Virus record (IMG/VR): IMGVR_UViG_3300029448_000084
Span: 1 to 45,352 of that record
Reading direction: 5' to 3' (one strand)
DNA length: 45,352 nt
Source of the DNA: a virus
This document shows, piece by piece, positions 18,832 to 45,352 of the stretch. Position 1 is the first letter of the stretch. Each line of letters begins with the position of its first letter. The notes beneath the pieces are model-generated. The model saw nothing but the letters and a program-made list of their open reading frames with translations, made no database searches and was not told the DNA's origin. The position numbers and the translations under genes were made by a program.

Positions 18832-21800
18832 TTAAGGTATGTCTGTAAAACCAGGTAAGGTGTCTAGTCTGATATAACGCTCCCAACGCATACTTCCTGT
18901 GACCCCGTCATTACCTGCAAACTGTACTTGGTATATCATGTTATCTCCATTCGGAAACTTTTGATCCGGGTCCACAGAATTGGACGAGATATAAGGATTG
19001 AACGAATACATCTGTGAGTTCTTTGTCAAATCTGTTGTAAACTCAAATCGATAAAAATTACCTGCCTGATCGTTCAATGCTAAGAGTGCAGATGACGCCC
19101 CACTCACGGTCTCTTCGATAATTGCGCGATACGAGATCAAATGGTGAGGGCCGATTGTCAGGTTATCCGCATCAATGGTTGTGACGCCTGCCGCAGTGAC
19201 AGTGTTGTCAACGTAAATGTACGACCCCTCACGGAAGAGGTTGAACGTTAAATAGTTCATCTTCTTCGCGTTTCGATAGCCGCGATAGCGCACGCCCGAT
19301 CCGATCGTGACAGAGCCAGCGCTTGCAAAATCCATTGCTAGCAGAGACGTCGGAGGCACAGTGACGGCATCAGCCGTGACTTTAGAAATTGATGTCGGTG
19401 TTGTTGTAAACGCCTCATCGACGGTCAGGGACGTGTTGCTATCAACGCGCACCAGGCGGCGATATTCCGTTCCGTCCGTGACCCACTCACCCAGTGCGAA
19501 TGCACCGACCCAAGATGTTCCGGAGCCGGTAAGTGTGACATGGCCGAAGCTGTCGGGTGCAGACTGGCTCGTCACCGTCCCCATGCTCGTTAGCATACTG
19601 CCTGATACCGCAAGACTGACCGCGCTAGGGAACGCAATCTTCATATCGCCCTGGTTTTCGGACAGGATGAAACCTGTCTGCCCAGCGATCGTGACCTGCA
19701 TTCCTTCCTCCAGGATCACACCCCAGAAGCTGACAGTCGGCAGCAACAATCGGACATCGGCGACGTAAACAGGAGATCCGCCTAAAACGTCTGCCGTATC
19801 AGGCGCCAGGACGGCAGTTTGCGGAGCAAAACTGACGGCATCAGCCAGCGTGATGGGCGTGGGGCTCTTGCTAGAATCAAGATGCACTGTCCACTCGAAC
19901 ACCGTGTCGTCAATGTTGACAGTGTGTGAAGCTTTAAGATCCGTAGCATCTGTCGTAAGCTGTGCTGTAGCTAAAGAGCGGAGATTGTTGTCTACAATCG
20001 TCACCCCTCCGCCAAGATCAATGTCACCAAAGTTGTTTGCGATGCCCGCGCCGCCATTGCGTGCGATCAGACCACCCCGCACACGCACCTTATTGTCGAT
20101 GCCGTCCCCTGAGCCATTGTTCAGATTTGTGCCGCTTATTTTAAAGGTTCTGATTCCGTTATAATAGTTGTTTACCAGGTTACAGTCACGAATATCCGTC
20201 ACGCCGCCGAAGAGATAAGCACCGTAGCCGCAGCCCTTCAGTGTGCTGTCGGCCAACTTAACACCACTTCCGCCCGCAAAGTGGTGGAAAATCTCATTAC
20301 CCCAGTCAAAAGACCGCTGCTCGTTCGAAAAGGCGTAGCTGTTTGCCATAGTGCAGGCGTTTGGCGTGTGGTACTCGCCATCAACCATTGCATTGGTGAT
20401 GATCACATTTTCGCAACCCGTTGCCTCAACCCCCGCGCCATTGAATTTCCGCGCCCGAAGATTGTCAAACTGGCAATCTTGATTGTAAGGAATCGTAATA
20501 ACAGCGTGTTGCATTGGTATAGCGCCGTTGGCGGTGCCGTAAAATTCCTCTGCTGCCAGGTCAACAAATGTCGTGTCTTTGCAGCCCGCCACCGTGATGC
20601 CGGAAAGCTGCGGGCTAATGCTGTCCACCGTGTGGGCGCCGCCGTCCATATTCCGAACGAGGATCTTTTCAATGCTGGAGTTAACCAGTCCAAAAAAGTC
20701 GATTGCGTGCGGCGTGATCGTACCAGTGCCAGCCTGACCAGTTAGGCGGGAATCCATATCGATGTTGGAAATATCCTCGATCATGTAGTCTTTGTATGAC
20801 CGACCGATAAAGCCAAAATATATCCCTGAGGCACACCCCTCGGCGCGGATGCGTTTAGCGGTAACCTTATCACCACTCAGGAACATTGGTGAGCTGATAA
20901 AATTGCGCAGCAAGATGTCTTCGACGTGCACATCACCATTAAATGTCTGAATTCCACGCCAACCATTATATTGTGTGCTAGCAAAATTATAAGACCCAAT
21001 GTTCCCAGCCTTGTTTCCATCCAGGCATAGCTTAGAAATACGCGCGCCCTGCGCCAGCGGGAGCATGTCGGCAGTTGTTCCGGCGACGGGATTGGCCATC
21101 CGAAGGACGGTCTGATCGCCATCACCCTCCAAGGTGTAGTCGATAGGGTTTAGACCGCCAATGTCGATATCGTAAGTGCCACGAGGAAGACCGATCCGCT
21201 CGTATCCCTGCGCGCGCAGCGCATTAAGCGCAGCGGTGATGTTTGTGCCAGGAGCAAGACCGGCAGTTGACGCATCAATAGTCATTGCGCCGGTCGATGA
21301 TGATCCAGCCCCACTCATAACAATGCGCGAGCCAACGCGCGTTAGACAATAAATGCCCTTATCTGTCCCTGGACGGAGCGTCCTCGTGCTCACAGCCAAA
21401 GATAGCGGCTGACCCGATGCTGGCGAACCCGCGTCCGTGAGCGTAATGTCTGATCCGGTGTCAGGCAAAACGAAACGGAACGACTGACCATCTGCAAGGC
21501 CATCGACACCCGTGATCGCATCGCCAGCGGTGAGCGTATAAAGTCGCTGCGGTGCAACGGTAATCACACCGGATGAAGCCGCTACAGTACCTCCACTAAT
21601 CAGGCCATTCAGCCGTGCTTCAGTAAGGGCGCCTTCGACAGTCGTGGACACAAAGTCCGAACCGCTGTCTTCGACACCAATTAAAGCCGCCCCTTTACCA
21701 TTCTCTGTTGAGGCCAGATCCAATACTTCGTTACCAACTTCGGCAGAGATGCGGTTCGATCCAACCTCGATACGGTCAACGACGACCGTGCCAGCTACCA

Positions 21801-22890
21801 GTCCTGCTGCTGTCTGCATCGGATCAAGGCGCAAGTTCGTAATGGTGCCGCCGCTATAATCAGCCCACTCTGGATGCTGCCGAATGTCGAAGACATACGT
21901 TGCCGTCGCGCCAACAGCCAGATCTGCGGGGCCAGCCAATGGGGTGGTATTATGGTTTACCGACCAAAAGTTGCGGCTATCGGTGGCCCAATACAGAACC
22001 GGCGCGACTGCGCCCTCGTCACCAGCAACGACGCGCGTCATCGTTACGAACACCAATGGGTTAGCTGCACCTGAATAGTCTGCTAACACCAAGTTGGCAT
22101 CGACTCTAGGATCCGGCCCGGTTCCTGTGATGCGCATACCCCCACCCGATTCGAGGGTCACGTTACAATCGTTGGCTGCGGTCCAAAGCGAACCCGTATC
22201 AGGAAACACGCTTGTGTAAACATTCGGGGTTGTGACCACGCCAGCCAGGTTTTTAACACCATCACCAGGATCGTGGTCGCGAAGATCCCAAACTAAGGGC
22301 TTAGCAGGCTCTGTGGTCTCCCACGTGTCGTTGTCACCATTGTCATAAATCGACCCACCTCCGGATCCGCTTACCTCCAAGAGGTCAACATTGGTGAAAC
22401 TTTGGGTCGCCAAATAAACATCAATATCGTAGTCGTGTGGCGCCGACTCATCGACATCGTAGCCATTGGCTCGAACCTCAAGCCACGCACTTCCCACATT
22501 GCCGAATAAGCTACCCGTAACTTCCAAGCCGCCTCTTGTGCTAAAAACCAGATCTACCGAAGAACGACCCTGCGCAGCGGTGTGGCCAAATAAAATACCC
22601 TTAACAGTTAAATGACCGTTGGTTCCGGGAACGCTACCGAGCTTCTTGTACCGTGTAGCCCCAGAAATATTGCTAGTTAAAAACTTTTGGTCTCGTATGA
22701 TTTTCGCGCCGCGCATACGCTCAGGCATACTCCCGCGGAAATGGGTATCAATCTGTCCAGGAACCGCCGCAGCCCGCGCGACAATCTCTTCAGCAACAGA
22801 GTTATCTGCATCGTATTCTACATCGGTTGCATCTGCGACATTACCACCGCCGGGAATTTTTAGTTTAGCGAATAAAGGGGTATCGGACAT
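18832..22890 (-). CDS. tailspike with right-handed beta-helix (pectate-lyase-like)
   Basis: The 1352-residue protein has a virion-attachment N-terminus, a long beta-sandwich-like region (about 90-530) and a pectate-lyase-type beta-helix starting at ITAALNALRAQGYERIGLPRGTY. Repeated Asn/Gly/Asp turns follow (IDNKVRVRGGLIARNGGAGI region). A C-terminal beta-rich module of about 90 residues closes it. Such spikes bind and often cleave surface polysaccharide and set host range. Codon use is clearly more GC-rich (GCC, GAT, CGC) than in all neighbours except for about the first 35 and last 80 codons. That pattern is what a swap of the receptor-binding part would leave. The start overlaps the stop of the upstream fibre gene by one base. 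Confidence 0.8.
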   Translation of the reverse strand: MSDTPLFAKLKIPGGGNVADATDVEYDADNSVAEEIVARAAAVPGQIDTHFRGSMPERMRGAKIIRDQKFLTSNISGATRYKKLGSVPGTNGHLTVKGILFGHTAAQGRSSVDLVFSTRGGLEVTGSLFGNVGSAWLEVRANGYDVDESAPHDYDIDVYLATQSFTNVDLLEVSGSGGGSIYDNGDNDTWETTEPAKPLVWDLRDHDPGDGVKNLAGVVTTPNVYTSVFPDTGSLWTAANDCNVTLESGGGMRITGTGPDPRVDANLVLADYSGAANPLVFVTMTRVVAGDEGAVAPVLYWATDSRNFWSVNHNTTPLAGPADLAVGATATYVFDIRQHPEWADYSGGTITNLRLDPMQTAAGLVAGTVVVDRIEVGSNRISAEVGNEVLDLASTENGKGAALIGVEDSGSDFVSTTVEGALTEARLNGLISGGTVAASSGVITVAPQRLYTLTAGDAITGVDGLADGQSFRFVLPDTGSDITLTDAGSPASGQPLSLAVSTRTLRPGTDKGIYCLTRVGSRIVMSGAGSSSTGAMTIDASTAGLAPGTNITAALNALRAQGYERIGLPRGTYDIDIGGLNPIDYTLEGDGDQTVLRMANPVAGTTADMLPLAQGARISKLCLDGNKAGNIGSYNFASTQYNGWRGIQTFNGDVHVEDILLRNFISSPMFLSGDKVTAKRIRAEGCASGIYFGFIGRSYKDYMIEDISNIDMDSRLTGQAGTGTITPHAIDFFGLVNSSIEKILVRNMDGGAHTVDSISPQLSGITVAGCKDTTFVDLAAEEFYGTANGAIPMQHAVITIPYNQDCQFDNLRARKFNGAGVEATGCENVIITNAMVDGEYHTPNACTMANSYAFSNEQRSFDWGNEIFHHFAGGSGVKLADSTLKGCGYGAYLFGGVTDIRDCNLVNNYYNGIRTFKISGTNLNNGSGDGIDNKVRVRGGLIARNGGAGIANNFGDIDLGGGVTIVDNNLRSLATAQLTTDATDLKASHTVNIDDTVFEWTVHLDSSKSPTPITLADAVSFAPQTAVLAPDTADVLGGSPVYVADVRLLLPTVSFWGVILEEGMQVTIAGQTGFILSENQGDMKIAFPSAVSLAVSGSMLTSMGTVTSQSAPDSFGHVTLTGSGTSWVGAFALGEWVTDGTEYRRLVRVDSNTSLTVDEAFTTTPTSISKVTADAVTVPPTSLLAMDFASAGSVTIGSGVRYRGYRNAKKMNYLTFNLFREGSYIYVDNTVTAAGVTTIDADNLTIGPHHLISYRAIIEETVSGASSALLALNDQAGNFYRFEFTTDLTKNSQMYSFNPYISSNSVDPDQKFPNGDNMIYQVQFAGNDGVTGSMRWERYIRLDTLPGFTDIP

Positions 22891-31146: not shown

Positions 31147-31233
31147 GCGGTAATATAATACCTCTTTCAATTACAAATTAGTCATAACTTTTTTCTTGCA
31201 TACCATTCTTTCCCCTGTTATCTCTCCATCATC

Positions 31234-31880
31234 GCTGGCCCTATCACCAATCGGTGAAGCCTTATGTCAGTGACCAGCCCTCTATCAGGGAAGCCTATTG
31301 CGAGAATGGGTGCGGGAGCTAACGTAGCGGTTAGTGACTGTAATTAAACAAACGTGGATATCGATGATGTCGAAACTCTTTTGTGATACGCGGTAAGCTA
31401 TCGATAAGGTAGCCTAGAGAGTATGATGTTTATGCGCGGTGAGGGCTAGCCCTAGTGCGTTTAGATGTAGTCCGTAAGGGCCCAAAGGACTAGTAAGCAG
31501 AAGGCTAACGCGTTGCGGGAGAGAAGCTGACTGCTTCCGCCAGAGGTCAGGGCTTAAAAGCCGGTGCGTCCAGGCTCCCGATCTCTTAAAATATGGACAA
31601 CTAACTAAAATCGAAGATGAATGACAATGGAATAGCTTAGCTAGATCTTGTTACCTTGTAACGATTTACCTCACCAATCGTGATGGGAAAGCAACAATCT
31701 ATAATGTTATGTTAATCTTAGTTTATCGAACGATAGTTAGCATGTGAAAAACGCTGCTATGGCGTAACAATAGCTACGCAGCGCAGAAACCCAGCCTTTT
31801 GTATACACAAAGGGAGTGACACTGGTGGCCTGCGTTGTAAGGTGTTGTTGCACCACAAGCCACGCGGTTTAATCCGCACG
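31234..31880 (+). ncRNA. large structured RNA candidate (about 650 nt)
   Basis: The region has no open frame but is dense in stems. A long-range 7-bp pairing CGGGAGC (31313-31319) with GCTCCCG (31574-31580) closes a multibranched domain. Inside it are GCTATC-gataa-GGTAGC (31397-31413), AGGG-ctag-CCCT (31442-31453), TAGTCC/GGACTA (31468-31473 with 31487-31492) and GCGGGAG/CTTCCGC (31515-31521 with 31534-31540). Before it are TCACC-aatc-GGTGA (31244-31257) and GCTGG/CCAGC (31234-31238 with 31274-31278). After it are GTTAC-ctt-GTAAC (31650-31662), CGCT.GCTAT with ATAGC..AGCG (31752-31783), a CCTTTTGT/ACAAAGG stem (31795-31813), and GTGGC with GCCAC (31825-31829, 31859-31863) enclosing GGTG/CACC. 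Size, phage context and nearby tRNAs recall the GOLLD and ROOL classes, but I cannot assign it to either. The borders are approximate. Confidence 0.6.
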
Positions 31881-31893
31881 AAAGGAACTAAAA

Positions 31894-32652
31894 ATGTCTA
31901 GTAAATTCAACATTTACGATGCCAAAACTATTAACACAAGTTTGACTAACCTGGGTAAAAAAGTCGAAGCATCGTTAGAGAAGGTGGATGAACTCTACCC
32001 TCATTGTCTTGCCTATCTCTTTGAAGGTAACGCAGATCCTATGACTCGTCTGTTTAACATCACTAAGAACCTTCAGGTTAAAGTGTACCCATGGGATTCT
32101 GTTAACGATTGTGTTCTTGATAACCCTGTATCAAAGTCTCTTTCAGTCATCATCAAGATTTTGACGAAAGACTTGGCACCCTTTGCAACTTTCTCTAACA
32201 AAGATGTAAAGTGCAAAGGTTGGAAAGAGTACGAGCAAGACAGAGCCGACAGCTTGGATCTTTTGTTCGAGGCAATGAAAGGCGGGGAGCATTCAGACCC
32301 TTTGTCTTTGGTCAATTACAACCCTATCTTATCTGGGCCTGATACATCTTATTATAGCGATGAGCAGGTGAAGAAGATGTTGGCCTCTCTCGTTGCCCGT
32401 ATCAACAAACGAGGAACAGTAGCTAGGGGATTAGTACAGCAACTTGAGGTATTGGCAGACGTTGAACCACAACATCAACCAGAGCCCAAGGTTACAGACG
32501 AAGAGGAAGAGGACAAGCCTATCGTTAGCCCTACCTCTGAGATCAACACAGAGCCACAGCCCGTTGTTAGCTTGTCAGACCAAAGTGACACTGCTATTGC
32601 TGCTGCTATCAACAAAGCTCTAATTGATAAGGACGGTAAGCCTGCTTTCTGA
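31894..32652 (+). CDS. hypothetical protein, first rightward gene (252 aa)
   Basis: The protein has a folded N-terminal region of about 190 residues, partly helical (TINTSLTNLGKKVEASLEKVDELYPHCLAYLFEGN). A disordered acidic/proline linker (EPQHQPEPKVTDEEEEDKPIV) and a short helical end follow. No known domain is recognised. It starts 7 bases after AAGGA, just downstream of the structured RNA and of a GCGG/CCGC mini-hairpin. Since it is the first gene after the control region it is likely made early and in quantity. Binding of nucleic acid or of the RNA candidate is possible but speculative. Confidence 0.8.
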   Translation: MSSKFNIYDAKTINTSLTNLGKKVEASLEKVDELYPHCLAYLFEGNADPMTRLFNITKNLQVKVYPWDSVNDCVLDNPVSKSLSVIIKILTKDLAPFATFSNKDVKCKGWKEYEQDRADSLDLLFEAMKGGEHSDPLSLVNYNPILSGPDTSYYSDEQVKKMLASLVARINKRGTVARGLVQQLEVLADVEPQHQPEPKVTDEEEEDKPIVSPTSEINTEPQPVVSLSDQSDTAIAAAINKALIDKDGKPAF

Positions 32653-32654
32653 TC

Positions 32655-32700
32655 GCGTTTAATACGCACTGCGTTTAATACGCACGTGGTTTACCCACAC
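32655..32700 (+). repeat. three tandem mini-hairpins
   Basis: GCGTTTAATACGCAC occurs twice exactly (32655-32669 and 32671-32685), followed by the related GTGGTTTACCCACAC (32686-32700). Each folds as a 4-bp stem with a 5-base T-rich loop followed by AC: GCGT/ACGC, GCGT/ACGC, GTGG/CCAC. A fourth relative, GCGGTTTAATCCGCAC, lies at 31864-31879 before the gene at 31894. The stems differ between copies but stay paired, which points to selection on RNA structure. They could be RNA-processing or stability elements between the gene and tRNA-Leu. Confidence 0.65.
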
Positions 32701-33111: not shown

Positions 33112-33540
33112 ATGAATAACGGTATCCTTGCGGGGATTGGCTTTGGTGGTTTAGTTTTCTTCGCTATCTCGGGTTGTGAAGATGACCTTGAGGTCGTTGA
33201 ACACAACATAGATCGCTCTGCTAATCACTTTGAGCTTATTAGGCGTGTGGTTTTCATTAACACTATCAGTGATGAATACTTGCTTGAGGTCGAGGGCCGA
33301 TGTGGTGTCACGAACAAAGACCGAAAACTCCTAGTCACGTGTGAGTATGGAAAGAATCGGTTCAAACAACACGAGCTAGGGCTTTCTCGGAATGTGACGT
33401 ATGTCGTTGAACAAATTGGATTAGAATACGCCAACCCCTATCACTATCGGGTAGTCTTCAAGCCTCAAGTTATTCTACCGGACATTGATATCCGTGGCGA
33501 TCTCTTAGAGAACCCACTAATGGATGAGAGAGGTAGGTAA
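33112..33540 (+). CDS. phage lipoprotein-like beta-rich protein
   Basis: The N-terminus is a short hydrophobic signal ending in a plausible lipobox, AISG-C22. The mature part has segments VEHNIDRSANHFELIRRVVFINTIS, DEYLLEVEGRCGV and LGLSRNVTYVVEQI. This matches the pattern of a small protein family widespread in phages of many hosts (often annotated as a beta-sandwich lipoprotein or hypothetical protein). If processed, it would be anchored in the cell membrane or outer membrane. Phage lipoproteins of this size sometimes block superinfection, so that role is an inference. The length of 142 aa is typical. Confidence 0.65.
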   Translation: MNNGILAGIGFGGLVFFAISGCEDDLEVVEHNIDRSANHFELIRRVVFINTISDEYLLEVEGRCGVTNKDRKLLVTCEYGKNRFKQHELGLSRNVTYVVEQIGLEYANPYHYRVVFKPQVILPDIDIRGDLLENPLMDERGR

Positions 33541-33705: not shown

Positions 33706-33850
33706 GAAAGATCTGAAATAGTGGGGATGAATGACCAACCTTCTTCCACAGATTGGAGCCTGGATAACCGGGCTCTTCACCGAACCTGCCCAGCAGGATG
33801 GCAGCCGGGAAAAAGCGGCAACACTTCAAACCTTAGAAAGGAAAGCTACT

Positions 33851-34030
33851 ATGACTGAAATTGTACTTCAAAGCGGATATGTTGTAACCATCCAACGTCC
33901 TGAAAACCGAGTACCAAAACCTATCGCTGCTGCTGATCTTAGTCTTGTCGCAGAGGAGTTCATCGAATACGATAAGACTATCACACAAGTCTCAAATGAT
34001 TCAACAGCGCCGGAACCTACTGTCCTCTAA
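33851..34030 (+). CDS. small hypothetical protein (59 aa)
   Basis: The ATG at 33851 follows AGAAAGGAAAG and is preferred over an in-frame ATG at 33731, which lacks a good site and would add a GC-richer 40-residue extension. The product starts with a beta-like segment (TEIVLQSGYVVTIQRPEN) and ends acidic. An overlapping frame at 33727-33858 (43 codons) is also open and could encode a separate peptide. No family is recognised. Confidence 0.5.
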   Translation: MTEIVLQSGYVVTIQRPENRVPKPIAAADLSLVAEEFIEYDKTITQVSNDSTAPEPTVL

Positions 34031-34422
34031 CTCTTAACTGAATAACATAAACTGCTCGTCGCAGTTGTCTATCAGTTGCGGCGGGCGACCACCTAGAAGA
34101 TCGGATAAACTAAGGAACATATGATCTCTGAAGAGCGGCGGCGTGGAAAGCATGGCGCGGAGACACGCTCAAGACGCGGAAATACGACCCGGATACGGCG
34201 GGTGGAAGCTCTGATTACAAACAGACCGAGAAGCCCCTCCCGCGATTATTGGGGCCGCTCTGTGGAACAGGTGACGCACTGACAGCACCTAAGTCGGAGT
34301 AGCGCCCGGCCCACTCTTCAGAGATCATATCGAATAGAAAAACTCAAGCATACTTAGCTAGAAGTAATGACTCTAGCATAGGCTTCCCCCTCAGAGCAAT
34401 CATGGACCTCCCAGTAAAATAA
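34031..34422 (+). other. non-coding stretch between small gene and tRNA-Arg
   Basis: Besides the 212-nt RNA candidate this stretch holds two further hairpins: AACTGC-tcgtc-GCAGTT at 34050-34066, and GCTAGA-9-TCTAGC at 34357-34377. No terminator-like T-run follows them and no open frame with a ribosome site is seen. The stretch may be one transcript processed between RNA domains and the tRNA. Confidence 0.6.
34119..34330 (+). ncRNA. 212-nt structured RNA candidate closed by a perfect 17-bp helix
   Basis: ATATGATCTCTGAAGAG (34119-34135) is the exact reverse complement of 34314-34330. The 178 bases between are GC-rich compared with the flanks and contain four smaller stems: GCGTG/CACGC (34141-34145, 34164-34168), ACCCG/CGGGT (34187-34191, 34199-34203), GCCCC/GGGGC (34233-34237, 34251-34255) and AGGTG/CACCT (34269-34273, 34286-34290). 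There is no convincing protein frame. The flanks show no target-site duplication, arguing against a MITE. It lies about 90 bases before tRNA-Arg. No known RNA family is recognised. Strand is assumed from the flanking genes. Confidence 0.6.
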
Positions 34423-34496
34423 GACAACGTAGCTCAATAGGATAGAGCAATAGTCTTCTAAACTATAGGTTGTGGGTTCAAGTCCCACCGTTGTCA
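34423..34496 (+). tRNA. tRNA-Arg (anticodon UCU)
   Basis: A full cloverleaf is present. The acceptor is GACAACG/CGTTGTC, the D arm GCTC-AATAGGATA-GAGC, and the anticodon stem ATAGT/ACTAT around CTTCTAA, with anticodon TCT at 34457-34459. The T arm is GTGGG-TTCAAGT-CCCAC. CCA is encoded (34497-34499). It reads AGA, the favoured arginine codon of the phage genes and usually a minor codon in GC-rich bacteria. Confidence 0.95.
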
Positions 34497-34517
34497 CCAC
34501 CTAACAAAGGAATATCT

Positions 34518-34889
34518 ATGCAATATGTGGCAGTATATGGAACCTTGAAGAAAGGTGAAAGTAATCATCACTTACTATGGGACAGTGAATTTATTAAAGA
34601 ATATCGCTACCCAGAGGGTTATCTCGTTGACCTAGGTCGTTTTCCCGGCTTCATTAATACGAAGTTCAGTTTCAATGGTGGTGTTGTCGTAGAGGTATAC
34701 TTAGTAAATGACGCCACAATTAATAGATTGGATTGGTTAGAGGATGTTGATAACGAGGACCCTATTCGAGGTTTGTACCTAAAAACTTTCATTGATGTGG
34801 AAGGAGTAGGAGAGTGCCTCATCTATGAATACAACTATCACCCAGATGTTTTAGAAGCACACCGGTTAGTAGATAAAGGAGAATGGTAA
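34518..34889 (+). CDS. gamma-glutamyl cyclotransferase-like (AIG2/GGCT family)
   Basis: The start is the ATG at 34518 after AAAGGAA; an earlier in-frame codon at 34470 would lie inside tRNA-Arg. The 123-residue protein has the family's substrate loop YGTLKKGESNHHLL (7-20), the catalytic glutamate E59 in GGVVVEVYLV and the usual LDWLEDVD helix. These enzymes release 5-oxoproline from gamma-glutamyl amines or peptides. In phage and bacterial amidoligase clusters they are thought to trim or recycle gamma-glutamyl linkages. It opens an operon of seven closely packed genes. Confidence 0.88.
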   Translation: MQYVAVYGTLKKGESNHHLLWDSEFIKEYRYPEGYLVDLGRFPGFINTKFSFNGGVVVEVYLVNDATINRLDWLEDVDNEDPIRGLYLKTFIDVEGVGECLIYEYNYHPDVLEAHRLVDKGEW

Positions 34890-34891
34890 CC

Positions 34892-35932
34892 ATGCGGCTA
34901 ACAAATAAAGATATCTTAGAAGACTTGAAAAATAAACCCCTTCCTAAGAGGAATACATTTGGGTTCAGGGTTTACTTGTCTGACGGAAGTACCCATAACT
35001 TTTCAGGTGCTTGCTTCAACCCCTTACCCCCGTTCTCGCGACGATCTATTGGTAAGAAGTGTGTAGGTTTTGCTTTACGAAGCACGGGTCCCGCTTATCT
35101 TAGCTATCCCGAAGACATCTTAAGAAAATATTTTATAGGGGACAAAACACCGTGGAGTTCTTATATTAAGTTGTCAAAAAGTAATGTAAAAGATTACTTA
35201 CAACATGGGTTCTTTTTTAACACTAAGGTATGTGAGAAAGTTCCTTGCTCTGTAATGTTTAATTTCTTGACAGCTCTTCGCTCTCCTATAGAAAGTTCGC
35301 AACAGCTAGAATGTTTTAGGCTCATGGAATCCTTAAAGGTGCCGGGTATGAACAAGTGGGATCCATTTGTTTTCGCATTTTCTATGCACAATTTTCTTTT
35401 CAATCACTCAAGGTATGGTCTCACAATCCCTTCTGTTTTTTACGATGCTGAAGGTAACCTACGAGAGGGTATTAGGAACGACCAGGCGCCAGGACGGCAG
35501 TTTAGAGAAATAAACTCTCACATAGAATTAAATAGCGATCACGCGTTTAGCTTCTGGGCTTCTTGGGGTCATAGATTTTTGCCTGGTTACTCACCCACGA
35601 TAAGAGATCAGTTCCTTCGCGGGGATCTTTCGATGAAACATTTAAGTAACTTAGAAGACTTTCAGTTACCTAACTTAAAGTCTTTCTCTGAGTACTATAG
35701 TTACTGTAGGGACAGCTCTATTTGGGGGGCCTACCCAAACAAGTACAAAAAACAAGTTCCGAATGCTTGGTTTAAAGGTGAACAAGATAAAGTAAACAGA
35801 GAGTTGGGGCGCTTACCCAGTAGAACTTTCAATTTACAAAAAACAAATAAGGAAGAGTTTGATAAGGCAGCAAAAGAACTCTGGACCGAAAAACTAAAAA
35901 TTGTTATTAAAACATACGAAAGGAATCAGTAG
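34892..35932 (+). CDS. unknown protein of the amidoligase operon (346 aa)
   Basis: The ATG at 34892 has GGAG 10 bases upstream and lies 2 bases after the cyclotransferase stop. An in-frame ATG at 34883 is too close to the ribosome site. I recognise no family. The sequence has many aromatic residues (PWSSYIKLSK, FAFSMHNFLFNHSRYGL, AFSFWASWGHRFLPGYS), looks globular and mixed alpha/beta, and lacks membrane segments. A His and Glu/Asp-rich part around EINSHIELNSDHAF could bind metal. Its fixed place between two gamma-glutamyl enzymes suggests that it is a working part of the pathway, perhaps the acceptor-specific or transferase component. Confidence 0.8.
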   Translation: MRLTNKDILEDLKNKPLPKRNTFGFRVYLSDGSTHNFSGACFNPLPPFSRRSIGKKCVGFALRSTGPAYLSYPEDILRKYFIGDKTPWSSYIKLSKSNVKDYLQHGFFFNTKVCEKVPCSVMFNFLTALRSPIESSQQLECFRLMESLKVPGMNKWDPFVFAFSMHNFLFNHSRYGLTIPSVFYDAEGNLREGIRNDQAPGRQFREINSHIELNSDHAFSFWASWGHRFLPGYSPTIRDQFLRGDLSMKHLSNLEDFQLPNLKSFSEYYSYCRDSSIWGAYPNKYKKQVPNAWFKGEQDKVNRELGRLPSRTFNLQKTNKEEFDKAAKELWTEKLKIVIKTYERNQ

Positions 35933-36685
35933 GTGTCTTATAAAGTTCATATCTTAGATAACATAGGCACGATGTACAACAACTTCTTCCATATAAATGG
36001 GCACGAGGTAGTCGAGGAAATCGAGGACGCCGAAGTGGTTTGTTTTACTGGGGGTGCCGATGTAAACCCTGAGTTATACGGGGAAGTACCACATAAGTTA
36101 TCTTCTTTTCAAAACCCCAGGAGAGACATCGCAGAAATGCTCGCCTATAACTATAGCCTTGAGAAACAGAAGGCTATGGTTGGCATTTGTAGGGGAGCAC
36201 AGATGCTGAATGTTTTGAATGGGGGAAAATTGTTCCAACATGTGGATAATCATGCAGCTACTCATGACATTCTAGATATTGCTAATAACAAATGGATTAA
36301 GGCCACATCTACACACCATCAAATGATGAGGCCAGGCCCTCAGGCCATACTCAGGGCTGTTGCGGTAGCCCCTACGGGGGAGGCTTTAAGATCTCTTTGT
36401 GTCAGAAAAGAGGCGTATAAAATTTCCTACTATATAGGGGGGCGGCCCTTCTCTCTCAAAGAAGTTAGAAAAACTTTAAGAAATAGCAGGGAATTTGTGG
36501 ATATCGATCCCGCATGTGACCCTGAAGTTTTGTATTACTATAACACAAACTCTTTGTGTTTCCAACCGCATCCAGAATTTGGTAGTGCTTCTAAAGAATT
36601 AGTAGAATTTTTCTTTAGACAATTAGATACAACTGTTAAAAACAATCGAAAGAAAGTCGAGGGTAAGTCATGTGCGGTATCGTAG
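35933..36685 (+). CDS. peptidase C26 / class I glutamine amidotransferase-like hydrolase
   Basis: Translation starts at a GTG immediately after the previous stop, with AAAGGA upstream. The protein (250 aa) has the triad of the class I amidotransferase fold: C86 in VGICRGAQ, and H213 and E215 in FQPHPEFG. GGADVNPELYGE at 40-51 is typical of gamma-glutamyl hydrolases such as PuuD. It should cleave gamma-glutamyl bonds of a small molecule or peptide adduct. It overlaps the next gene by 16 bases. Confidence 0.88.
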   Translation: MSYKVHILDNIGTMYNNFFHINGHEVVEEIEDAEVVCFTGGADVNPELYGEVPHKLSSFQNPRRDIAEMLAYNYSLEKQKAMVGICRGAQMLNVLNGGKLFQHVDNHAATHDILDIANNKWIKATSTHHQMMRPGPQAILRAVAVAPTGEALRSLCVRKEAYKISYYIGGRPFSLKEVRKTLRNSREFVDIDPACDPEVLYYYNTNSLCFQPHPEFGSASKELVEFFFRQLDTTVKNNRKKVEGKSCAVS

Positions 36686-37812
36686 GTGTTGCAGGTAATC
36701 TAAACAACAACGACATAAAGATATTTAAAGAGCTGCTTTTTGTAGATACTTTAAGAGGTCGTCACGCAACAGGGATGTATGCGTATTCCGCCAAAAAAAA
36801 TGAGGGGGAGTTGGTAAAGAAAGCAATGGAAGCCCCTTCCTTTCTCGAATTGAAACAAGTGGACAAGCTTTGTAACATAAGTAAAAGTCTTTTGTTGGGC
36901 CATAACAGACACGCAACTATCGGAAACCTTTCCGGAGTAAACGCGCACCCCTTTCAATACCAAGATATTGTGGGGGTTCATAATGGTTCGATATCTATTC
37001 CTAGTTTCACCCAGCTAAAGAACAAGTTTAAAAATCCTGACTATTTCCAAGTTGATAGTGACGCAATTTTTGCAAACATCCAACACTTTGGGATTGAGGA
37101 CACACTAAAAGAAATGCAAGGTGCTTGGTGTTTGGTTTGGGTTAACCTAGAAGAACAAACTTTGAATTTCTTACGTAACGAAAAGAGACCTATGACCCTG
37201 TATCGGGATGAAGGTGATCTATACTGGGCATCTGAAGTTAATATGTTAAGGGCTATCCTTTCCCGTAACAAGATTGAGTGGGATCCTTCCAAAGTCACCA
37301 ACCTTCCTGTTAATACTCTATTTAGTTATGACATCTCTCCCGTAAATAAATCTAATATCATCTCTGTTGGTGAGCCTAAAATCACGGTGGATATGAAGGG
37401 GAAAGAAGAAGTAAAGACTATACATGAAACATCACAGACCACTTTTATTGGGAGGAGTAAGACAAATTACAGGGCACAATCAAGACAGCAAAGTACTAAA
37501 GTCGAAAGTCCTATTGATCCTATCGAATTTAATTCGTTTCTAAAATACGAATATGATGGTGTCACTCTTATAAAAACTTCCTTTAAAAAGGATTGTTGTT
37601 ACTGTTCTAACCCGGTAGATTCAAAAGATAATTGGGTTTGGTTATCCCCTGACACTATCTTGTGCGAGAATTGTTGTAACGACAAACAAGTAAGAGGGAC
37701 TATAGAGGAGTATACAGGTAAGACATTACAAGAGTTTGTAACAGAACATGAAGATCTTTTGTATTACTTAAACCCAGAAATGTTTGAAGCAGGAGAAAGA
37801 AAGGAAGCTTGA
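36670..37812 (+). CDS. class II glutamine amidotransferase with C-terminal zinc ribbon
   Basis: The protein begins MCGIVGVAGN; Cys2 becomes the N-terminal nucleophile after methionine removal. The first 200 residues follow the Ntn amidotransferase fold (RGRHATGMYAYS, LGHNRHATIG, VGVHNGSI, DSDAIFANIQ). It should free ammonia from glutamine. Residues about 205-300 form a linker, and at about 308-340 two cysteine pairs (CCYC and CENC) form a probable zinc ribbon. I know no standard role for a ribbon in this family, so it may dock a partner or a protein substrate. It lies between the C26 hydrolase (16-base overlap) and the amidoligase (2-base gap). Confidence 0.88.
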   Translation: MCGIVGVAGNLNNNDIKIFKELLFVDTLRGRHATGMYAYSAKKNEGELVKKAMEAPSFLELKQVDKLCNISKSLLLGHNRHATIGNLSGVNAHPFQYQDIVGVHNGSISIPSFTQLKNKFKNPDYFQVDSDAIFANIQHFGIEDTLKEMQGAWCLVWVNLEEQTLNFLRNEKRPMTLYRDEGDLYWASEVNMLRAILSRNKIEWDPSKVTNLPVNTLFSYDISPVNKSNIISVGEPKITVDMKGKEEVKTIHETSQTTFIGRSKTNYRAQSRQQSTKVESPIDPIEFNSFLKYEYDGVTLIKTSFKKDCCYCSNPVDSKDNWVWLSPDTILCENCCNDKQVRGTIEEYTGKTLQEFVTEHEDLLYYLNPEMFEAGERKEA

Positions 37813-37814
37813 AC

Positions 37815-38642
37815 ATGCCTATCTTAATTGGAGCAGACCCAGAACTGTTTGTTAGAGAAGAACAGACAAACAGGATGGTCCCTGGTTTTGACTTAATTCC
37901 AGGCACAAAACAAGAACCTCATAAAGTTAACAACGGTGCTGTTCAAGTTGACGGCATGGCCCTAGAATTCAACATTGATCCTTCAAGGTCCTTGGAAGAA
38001 TTTGTAGATAACATCACGTCAGTTCAACAGCAGTTGCAAGAGATGGTGGCAGGCAAGAACTATCATTTAGTTGCTGAACCAGTAGCAGAATTTAATCAAG
38101 AAGATCTTAATAATCTTCCTGGCTTTGCTTTAGAACTAGGTTGTGAACCTGATTATAACGCATGGTTATACGGTCAAGAGAACTACCTCGATCCTTCTGC
38201 TAGTTTTTTAAACTGGAGGACTGGCGCAGGGCATGTGCATATTGGGTGGACCGAAGGAGTGGAAGATATCTTTTCTATCGAACATAGGATGGCTTGCATT
38301 GAACTTGTTCAAGAATTAGATTATTATCTTGGAGTGCCTTCTTTACTGTGGGATACTGATACGAAGAGAAGGGAAATGTATGGTGCGCCTGGGTGTTACC
38401 GCCCTAAACCCTACGGTCTAGAGTACCGGACTTTAAGTAACGCCTGGCTTCGGAGGGAAGAGTACACCAGGCAGGTATATCTAAACACAAAACTAGCTGC
38501 TAAAAATTATTTTGATACTGATTATAGATTTGTATCAGAGTATGGACAGTCTGCCAAAGACTGGATGTTAGACCCTGAGACTTACCAAGGGGAAATCCGG
38601 GCCTTCCTAAATGACAACAGTCACCTAACGGAGAACCTGTAA
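37815..38642 (+). CDS. phiEco32-type amidoligase (COOH-NH2 ligase)
   Basis: The ATG at 37815, 7 bases after AAGGAAG, is preferred over an in-frame TTG at 37809. The 275-residue protein has the pattern of the glutamine-synthetase-fold amidoligases first described in phage phiEco32: GADPELF near the N-terminus, QVDGMALEFNIDPS, GAGHVHIGW, and a late YGLEYRTLSNAWL. The acidic residues and histidines of these motifs bind metal and ATP. The family joins a carboxylate to an amine. A second, different amidoligase is two genes downstream, so two successive ligations are likely. Confidence 0.88.
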   Translation: MPILIGADPELFVREEQTNRMVPGFDLIPGTKQEPHKVNNGAVQVDGMALEFNIDPSRSLEEFVDNITSVQQQLQEMVAGKNYHLVAEPVAEFNQEDLNNLPGFALELGCEPDYNAWLYGQENYLDPSASFLNWRTGAGHVHIGWTEGVEDIFSIEHRMACIELVQELDYYLGVPSLLWDTDTKRREMYGAPGCYRPKPYGLEYRTLSNAWLRREEYTRQVYLNTKLAAKNYFDTDYRFVSEYGQSAKDWMLDPETYQGEIRAFLNDNSHLTENL

Positions 38643-39319
38643 TGAAACCTTTGTATGATAATCTTTCGGATGCACAGAGTTACTTGTCAAAAAGTATTGT
38701 TATGTTGGGTAAAGAGCCTTGTTATATTGTTTATGTAGAGGGGGAGGATCCCCTGAATAAAGAAACCTGGACTATCGGCTACAACCTTCTAAAAGATTGG
38801 GGTTACGGAGAAAAAAGAGTTTCTTACGTAGAAGCCGACTTAAATGTTAAACCAATCAAGGGTTTCTTAACTAATGTTCTTATCTATGATTTTCCTTGTT
38901 TCTTACATGTGAGAAGAAAGCCTTGTAGGTCTTTTAAACAAGGTTTGTCTAGGTCTAATGCACTAATAGACGCCTGGAAACCTAATCATGCACAGTTTAG
39001 AAGCACCAAAGAAGCCTTCGATTTAAAAACCTTTATGGCTGCGCCCTCTTTCGTCGATAACATGAAAAATATTTACCCTAGTTTAGAAAACTTAGAAGAG
39101 AGTTTTGAAAATTATCCAAATAACCCGATAGCAATCTCCCGAAAACTGGCTATCGGTAGGGATAATGAACTAGGATTAGAATACCTAATCAGAAATATGA
39201 GTAAGGTCGGTTACCGGGAAGGAAACGAAGGACCTTTCAAACTTTCTGAAACAGGGAGACACCAACTGGAATATATCGTTAACGCAAATGTACCTGGCTT
39301 GGAGGTAACTAATGTCTAA
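38642..39319 (+). CDS. unknown protein between the two amidoligases (225 aa)
   Basis: The start overlaps the amidoligase stop by one base and the end overlaps the next amidoligase by 8 bases, so the three are translationally coupled. No family is recognised. The N-terminal half is alternating strand/helix (PCYIVYVEGED, VLIYDFPCFLHVRRKPCRSF), and the rest is helical and basic. Conserved linkage would make this a partner of the amidoligases, for example a substrate carrier or adaptor. This is inference from position. Confidence 0.8.
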   Translation: MKPLYDNLSDAQSYLSKSIVMLGKEPCYIVYVEGEDPLNKETWTIGYNLLKDWGYGEKRVSYVEADLNVKPIKGFLTNVLIYDFPCFLHVRRKPCRSFKQGLSRSNALIDAWKPNHAQFRSTKEAFDLKTFMAAPSFVDNMKNIYPSLENLEESFENYPNNPIAISRKLAIGRDNELGLEYLIRNMSKVGYREGNEGPFKLSETGRHQLEYIVNANVPGLEVTNV

Positions 39320-40355
39320 TGAAGCAGAAATTAAAAGTTTCCTTGACTTGAAACTAAAGGAAGTTCCTTACCTAACTTATAAAAAGTGGGCAGCCAACAG
39401 GCTCTTGGGGGTCGAGGTTGAAACAGAAGGAAATAGGCTGCCTGACGCATACCTTTTGGAAACGCTTGCTTTACAGGGCGAGATCAAGTCAACCCTTAAA
39501 GAATCTTTTCTCAGTTTTTGGAAAACAACACGGGACGGATCTTTAAGAAACAATTCCTATGAATATGTTTTTAGGAAACCTTTAACTGTAATCGAAGCAG
39601 AAGAGGCCATCAACCAGTTGTATAATGTGTTTGAGTTAGCTAACACTGAACTAAAACAAAGCTACAGAACTAGTGTACATATTCATGTTAATTATCTAAA
39701 CAATACAGTACAAGAAATAATGAATAGTATTATGTTGTACTATATTGTGGAACCAATCTTAGCTAACTTCTGTCTTGAACCTCGAAGACACAACTTGTTT
39801 TGTTTACAGGCCTCAGAAGCAGAGGCTATAAAGGACACACTGTTACGTGTTTTAACAGCTAAAGCGGGGTCAAGTCTTTACCATTTGAGTAACGAGGATA
39901 TCCGATACGCTGCTATGAATCTTAACGCCATTACTAAGTTTGGGTCTATCGAGTACAGAATGTTAGAAGGTTCCGCGAGCAAGAAAAAAATCTTAAAGTG
40001 GATTGACCTACTCCTAGAATTACGAAGCGCAAGCAGCGCATTCCCAAACCCACAAGTAGTCTTAACAGAGCTATCCATTAAAGGCTTAGAAGATTTCTTG
40101 GAAACGTATCTTCCTAAGATTAGTTCTCTTTACAGCATTGAGTTAGAAGATTCTTGTATGGAACTTATGAGAGATATGCAAGAGTTAGCTTACTGCATTA
40201 ATTGGGATGTGGTAAAGGAGGAGAAAAAAGAAACGCGGGGTTATACTAATAAGATTCTAGAGCAGGGCTTAGTTAGGGGTAGGCCTTGGAGAGCAGAACA
40301 ACCGATTGAGCAAAATTATCTTCAGATCAGAGAAGTTTGGGAAGAAGATTTCTAA
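39312..40355 (+). CDS. Amidoligase_2 family enzyme
   Basis: The 347-residue protein matches the second glutamine-synthetase-fold amidoligase type: LLGVEVETEG near residue 30 (the G-x-E-x-E metal motif), RDGSLRNNSYEYVFRKP, TSVHIHVNY, a helical insert, and IEYRMLEGSAS in the second half. These enzymes form amide or peptide bonds using ATP. It is the last gene of the operon and is followed within 10 bases by a strong promoter for the replication genes, with no clear terminator between. Confidence 0.87.
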   Translation: MSNEAEIKSFLDLKLKEVPYLTYKKWAANRLLGVEVETEGNRLPDAYLLETLALQGEIKSTLKESFLSFWKTTRDGSLRNNSYEYVFRKPLTVIEAEEAINQLYNVFELANTELKQSYRTSVHIHVNYLNNTVQEIMNSIMLYYIVEPILANFCLEPRRHNLFCLQASEAEAIKDTLLRVLTAKAGSSLYHLSNEDIRYAAMNLNAITKFGSIEYRMLEGSASKKKILKWIDLLLELRSASSAFPNPQVVLTELSIKGLEDFLETYLPKISSLYSIELEDSCMELMRDMQELAYCINWDVVKEEKKETRGYTNKILEQGLVRGRPWRAEQPIEQNYLQIREVWEEDF

Positions 40356-44492: not shown

Positions 44493-45348
44493 GAACATTG
44501 ACACCCTAGTAGAGGATATCTACAGTCTCTTCGAAGATGGTCATGTTACTAGTGAAGACAATGTAAAAAATTTAGCAGATAATATTGCTAAAAGTATTTC
44601 CTTTGCTTTAAAGAAGGCGGGGGAAACTAGATCTAATCATTTAAGATTTTCTAATCTAGGACACCCTGTTCGAAAACTGTGGTATAAGACTAAAGGTTAT
44701 GAGGGGGAGGAGTTACTCCCCCATACCAAGATTAAGTTCCTCTATGGTGATATTTTAGAGCATTTGTTAATCTTCCTAGCTAAAGAAGCTGGCCATAAGG
44801 TAACGGGAGAACAAGAAAGACTTACACTACACGATGTAGTAGGACACCGAGATTGTGTCATTGATGGGGTAACTGTAGACGCTAAGACTGCCTCCAAATA
44901 TGCTTTCGAAAATAAATTTAAACCTGACTTAGCTCTCTTAGAAGAAGATTCTTTCGGCTATCTCGCTCAGTTAAGTGCTTATATAGAAGCCGATGAGACA
45001 GATGAAGTTAGTAATACTGAAGGAGCTTTCCTAGTAATTAACAAAGAGACAGGTGCGCTTCATCTTTCTAAGTACCCTAAAGAAGTTTTGCCCTCCCCTA
45101 AAGAAAACATCCCTAAACTAAAAACTATTTTAGAAAGCGAACAGTTACCAGAAAGATGTTACAACCCTGAACCTATGGGTAAATCAGGTAACATGAAACT
45201 ACCTTTCCAGTGTAGTTACTGTGAATTCAAACATGAATGTTATAAAGACAGTAACGGTGGAGAAGGTTTGCGAACATTTCTCTATAGTTCTGGTCCTGTT
45301 TATCTAACAGAAGTGGGTAAAGAACCTAATGTATTTGAATTAAAATGA
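44485..45348 (+). CDS. Cas4/RecB-like PD-(D/E)XK exonuclease
   Basis: The 287-residue nuclease has the motif GHRDCVIDGVTVDAKTASK (PD-(D/E)XK type, with D and the D-x-K triad) in the middle. Near the C-terminus is a cysteine cluster, CSYCEFKHEC, that could hold an iron-sulphur centre with an earlier cysteine as in Cas4/AddB-type nucleases. In T7-like replication blocks this place is taken by the gp6 exonuclease, which removes primers and degrades host DNA. The last third repeats at the window start (2-334) because the contig closes on itself. The stop overlaps the ATG of endonuclease I. Confidence 0.82.
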   Translation: MSKNIDTLVEDIYSLFEDGHVTSEDNVKNLADNIAKSISFALKKAGETRSNHLRFSNLGHPVRKLWYKTKGYEGEELLPHTKIKFLYGDILEHLLIFLAKEAGHKVTGEQERLTLHDVVGHRDCVIDGVTVDAKTASKYAFENKFKPDLALLEEDSFGYLAQLSAYIEADETDEVSNTEGAFLVINKETGALHLSKYPKEVLPSPKENIPKLKTILESEQLPERCYNPEPMGKSGNMKLPFQCSYCEFKHECYKDSNGGEGLRTFLYSSGPVYLTEVGKEPNVFELK

Positions 45349-45352
45349 CAAG
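45015..45352 (+). repeat. contig-end overlap with bases 1-338 (about 96% identical)
   Basis: Bases 45015-45352 align without gaps to 1-338, with about 15 substitutions by hand count. All but two amino-acid changes are silent. True terminal repeats of a phage would be identical. This pattern fits a circular or permuted genome assembled from a mixed population, where the two contig ends come from different strains. Confidence 0.85.

Follow-up and report, generated by a model that had tools for sequence, protein, structure and literature searches.

Phage early operons, such as that of phage T7, carry RNase III processing sites, which in T7 are short local hairpins. Miniature inverted-repeat transposable elements (MITEs) are short, non-coding elements bounded by perfect terminal inverted repeats. 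Among the large structured RNAs of phages and prophages, GOLLD and ROOL are often found near tRNA islands; many GOLLD RNAs exceed 800 nt, and the structure of both is extensive and supported by covariation (PMC12286853). Here, we analyzed a 212-nt element (34119-34330) that, like GOLLD and ROOL, is phage-encoded, non-coding and situated near tRNA genes, and we weighed whether it is best regarded as an RNA, a mobile insertion or another kind of inverted repeat.

Genomic setting of the element

The window comprises all 45,352 bases of the IMG/VR record IMGVR_UViG_3300029448_000084 (41% GC). Its detected phage genes encode terminase, portal, capsid, DNA polymerase, primase-helicase, exonuclease, endonuclease, ribonucleotide reductase and ThyX, on the basis of which we placed the phage near Zobellviridae. 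The closest named terminases, at 54-65% identity, belong to Celeribacter phage P12053L, Lentibacter phages ICBM1-3, Roseobacter phages and Methylophilales phages MEP401/402. An exact end repeat is absent from the contig; positions 1-338 and 45015-45352 repeat one another over 338 bp at 95.6% identity, suggesting that the contig probably closes on itself and that the genome is probably circular. Structural genes occupy the part up to 30.7 kb and run leftward, and early genes run rightward from 31.9 kb. Within the structural region, a gene at 18832-22890 contains long stretches above 55% GC and was probably acquired from elsewhere.

The element lies within the rightward early operon, between co-directional genes and, as the preliminary description had it, before tRNA-Arg(TCT) (Table 1). 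A terminator scan found no terminator-like site on the + strand from the element to the tRNA, making their co-transcription plausible; the scan called the small hairpin upstream of the element on the - strand. We found no promoter-like site on the + strand near the element. Further along, positions 34518-40355 hold a cluster of gamma-glutamyl cyclotransferase, glutamine amidotransferase and amidoligase genes (COOH.NH2 ligase, Amidoligase_2), which is partly common to MW202697.1.

About 690 nt of non-coding DNA, partly GC-rich and with strong hairpins, open the operon (31200-31893). The predicted fold of 31200-31890 has a z of -3.43, contributed mostly by the last 300 nt (z -3.7). No Rfam family was found for 31200-31893, which could be a large leader RNA. 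The spacers before the first early gene of MW202697.1, MEP401, MEP402, ICBM1 and PQ867845.1 also contain stretches whose folds are far more stable than those of shuffles (z about -3 to -4.7). Two small hairpins, with TTTAAT(A) loops, stand just 5' of an early gene (31864-31877) and of tRNA-Leu (32665-32700).

Table 1. Features of the locus and folded stretches in other phages, by position.
Feature	Position	Strand	Remarks
Small hairpin AACTGC-tcgtc-GCAGTT	34050..34066	+	upstream of element; called on - strand by terminator scan
5' arm of closing helix, ATATGATCTCTGAAGAG	34119..34135	+	exact reverse complement of 34314-34330
Arg-rich 53-aa ORF	34121..34282	+	ATG within 5' arm; judged not a gene of the phage
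Inward helix extension	34136..34138 with 34311-34313	+	C.A mismatch, then two G-C pairs
GC-rich, U-poor interior	34136..34313	+	62% GC; no fold better than shuffles
3' arm of closing helix, CTCTTCAGAGATCATAT	34314..34330	+	exact reverse complement of 34119-34135
tRNA-Arg (anticodon TCT)	34423..34499	+	92 nt downstream of element
Well-folding leader stretches, other Zobellviridae-type phages	L018:36090-36700, L019:41896-42987, L020:773-910, L115:43244-43693, L114:801-926		z about -3 to -4.7

The closing helix and the GC-rich interior

The element had been described as closed by a perfect 17-bp inverted repeat, and both the coordinates and the exact complementarity of the arms hold. With their inward extension, the arms reach 20 nt at 95% complementarity. 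In 100 dinucleotide-preserving shuffles of the 45,352-nt genome, no perfect pair within the same range of distances was longer than 14 bp, and the observed 17 bp is thus beyond chance. Across about 1 Mb of relatives, pairs of at least 17 bp numbered just two: the one in L046 closes a contig end, and the one in L100 falls in an AT-rich stretch. The arm duplex has a calculated energy of -25.5 kcal/mol, and in the fold ensemble its pairs have probabilities of 0.65-1.0, with 16 of the 17 at 0.74 or more.

Between the arms, the interior is as GC-rich as had been noted: at 62% against 41% for the genome, it has a value that only 13 of 45,174 windows of 178 nt reach, and the three richest of these begin at 34135-34137. 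Its composition on the + strand (G 0.33, C 0.29, A 0.25, U 0.13) resembles that of structured RNA, in which high GC and low U are common.

The preliminary description further envisaged a compact multibranched RNA with a four-stem interior. We therefore compared predicted folds with those of shuffled sequences. For the complete element, the predicted folding energy is -87.3 kcal/mol (z -4.65), a stability that none of 200 shuffles equaled. This value is owed to the arms: taken by itself, the interior does not exceed its shuffles in stability (z 0.12 on the + strand, 0.53 on the - strand), and when the arms were held fixed and only the interior was shuffled, z was -0.33. With the same folding method, both nearby tRNAs stood out from their shuffles (z -2.81 and -2.0). 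No interior pair exceeded a probability of 0.7 in the ensemble, and the element folds equally well on the - strand. In these models, the four stems are one among many nearly equal drawings of the interior. The stable closing helix and the RNA-like composition of the + strand are compatible with a structured RNA; the multibranched fold itself is not supported.

These properties bear on two further readings. In the first, the element would represent a new class of compact phage RNA, released beside the tRNA by its long closing helix, with a GC-rich core folded through pseudoknots or protein contacts that are invisible to energy models; we regard this as unlikely. In the second, which we consider less probable again, the arms would be a recent, non-functional inverted duplication, in which a template switch during replication copied one arm in inverted orientation 178 nt away and the GC-rich spacer arose by chance. 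The perfection of the arms, which show none of the G-U pairs or mismatches that accumulate in RNA helices over time, fits such a recent origin, as does an interior with no sign of selection for folding. A duplication leaves unexplained, however, why the interior is the most GC-rich stretch of the genome and why its strand composition is RNA-like.

A perfect repeat around a short segment also invites comparison with invertible DNA. Invertible promoters have a fitting layout, with perfect repeats flanking about 180 bp, and the element could in principle be such a segment (inverton) between 17-bp recombination sites. In addition to the matching layout, a protein of the 'recombination directionality factor' family (phrog_478, PF25682) is encoded at 33112-33540, 0.6 kb upstream. 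However, this family is broad and conserved in phages (found in 797 phage records), so that its name proves little, no recombinase was found among the phage proteins scanned, and the segment contains no promoter-like site. Together, these data render an inverton very unlikely.

Searches for relatives and further copies

We searched for relatives of the element at the level of structure, nucleotide sequence and translated sequence. Rfam, including the GOLLD and ROOL covariance models, returned no match at the gathering threshold or up to E 10. With blastn, the element gave nothing useful among phages and matched neither plasmids nor E. coli, and no second copy was found within its own genome. 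The paired arms (inner 13 nt of each, with a 160-189 nt spacer) were absent from IMG/VR and from GTDB genomes. The single 17-mer arm occurred in 12 IMG/VR contigs, each carrying one arm only, which is about the chance level for a collection of this size, and these hits were set aside. Translated segments of the element yielded only spurious matches in IMG/VR and none in GTDB genomes; the back-translated segments spanned the greater part of the element's ORF region and would have picked up close DNA copies as well.

Neighboring proteins and the terminase were also used as hooks. The proteins encoded at 33731-34030, 34883-35932 and 31894-32652 had no relatives in IMG/VR. The terminase yielded 80 relatives; the 46 that were scanned had no tRNA, and no similar element was found. 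A covariance model built from the single sequence (R1) recovered only the element itself from about 1 Mb of relatives and 13 records, a result from a weak model type that does not amount to a strong negative. By sequence comparison, then, the element is a single orphan among the collections searched (Rfam, phages, plasmids, E. coli, IMG/VR, GTDB genomes and about 1 Mb of Zobellviridae-type relatives), with the searches for copies being sensitive to close copies only.

The main rival to a role as RNA is an orphan mobile insertion. Here, a small MITE-like, non-autonomous element would have inserted once before tRNA-Arg, with the 17-bp arms serving as terminal inverted repeats and its ends concealing a target duplication of TA or ATAT. 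We consider this possible, though on the unlikely side. The exact 17-bp terminal repeats and a GC content unlike that of the flanks are what such an insertion would leave behind, and high-GC DNA has probably entered this genome before, as in the gene at 18832-22890. The ends add to this, since ATAT...ATAT forms both inverted and direct repeats. The preliminary description had reported no visible target duplication, which is correct for duplications longer than ATAT, as these are excluded by the flanks. The outermost four bases at both ends, however, are ATAT, which is compatible with a TA or ATAT duplication; because this motif is its own reverse complement and could conceal either one, the lack of a visible duplication is not decisive.

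Copies with flanking duplications at several unrelated loci had been named beforehand as the sign of a transposable element, and every copy search came back empty. The absence of a second copy in the phage's own genome, and of any copy in plasmids, phages, E. coli, IMG/VR or GTDB genomes, whether sought by sequence, translated segments or arm pair, lowers the probability of a MITE, but would also be expected if a lone insertion had come from an unsampled source. In its dinucleotide bias, the interior is also typical of the genome, with 96% of windows deviating more, although this measure is noisy on 178 nt. If the element is nonetheless an insertion, it would represent an unusual instance of a compact phage genome harboring a MITE-like element.

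We also considered whether the element encodes a protein. The ORF at 34121-34282 starts with ATG and has an AAGGA motif upstream, and could specify a small, basic protein of 53 aa whose start codon is caged by the hairpin. However, its codon adaptation of 0.48 lies just under the lowest of 217 phage gene segments of the same length (median 0.71) and is low even for an out-of-frame reading. Its GC content is flat over the codon positions (0.57, 0.61, 0.59), in contrast to the neighboring small genes, and no protein family matched. Five apparent translated relatives in IMG/VR were rejected as Arg-rich matches that are out of frame with the genes they overlap. Low codon adaptation, flat GC, the lack of a family and the spurious nature of the translated matches led us to judge that the ORF is not a gene of the phage, and we regard a caged small protein as extremely improbable.

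A candidate processing site in the early operon

We tentatively favor, at slightly less than even chance, the interpretation that the element is non-coding and acts as RNA in the rightward early operon, its functional portion being the helix, a candidate RNase III-type processing or stabilizing site. We infer that the arms would pair during transcription of the early operon to form a helix of about 20 bp, closing a GC-rich loop of about 178 nt. The helix would most likely serve as an RNase III-type site in the cell, either excising the loop from the early transcript or protecting its ends. Cutting would release or shorten the tRNA-Arg leader so that 5' processing could proceed normally, and the excised or protected GC-rich RNA, about 180-212 nt in size, may have a further role as a small RNA.

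Several observations argue for this interpretation. The 17-bp repeat exceeds chance, the element as a whole folds better than its shuffles and the helix pairs dominate the ensemble. The interior is U-poor on the + strand and the most GC-rich stretch of the genome, the surrounding genes are co-directional, the tRNA follows after 92 nt with no + strand terminator-like site in the gap, and the ORF is non-coding by codon usage. In addition, the same operon starts with another long, structured, non-coding leader. On the other side, the interior folds like its shuffles while the neighboring tRNAs fold better (z -2.8, -2.0), the helix is equally symmetric as DNA and the element's - strand fold is as good, no + strand promoter-like site was found near the element, and no homologue, and hence no covariation, was found in the collections searched. 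The Zobellviridae-type group has isolated members, and the element is absent from all of those examined. As a stable phage RNA, it would join the few structured RNAs that phages encode near tRNA genes.

Compared with GOLLD and ROOL, whose location near tRNA genes it shares, the element is only 212 nt long, its interior folds no better than shuffles and it matches neither Rfam model. It resembles MITEs in being short, non-coding and bounded by perfect terminal inverted repeats, but differs from them in having no second copy anywhere searched. With the RNase III sites of the T7 type, it has in common a long base-paired stem between co-directional early genes, whereas the candidate helix here closes a 178-nt GC-rich loop.
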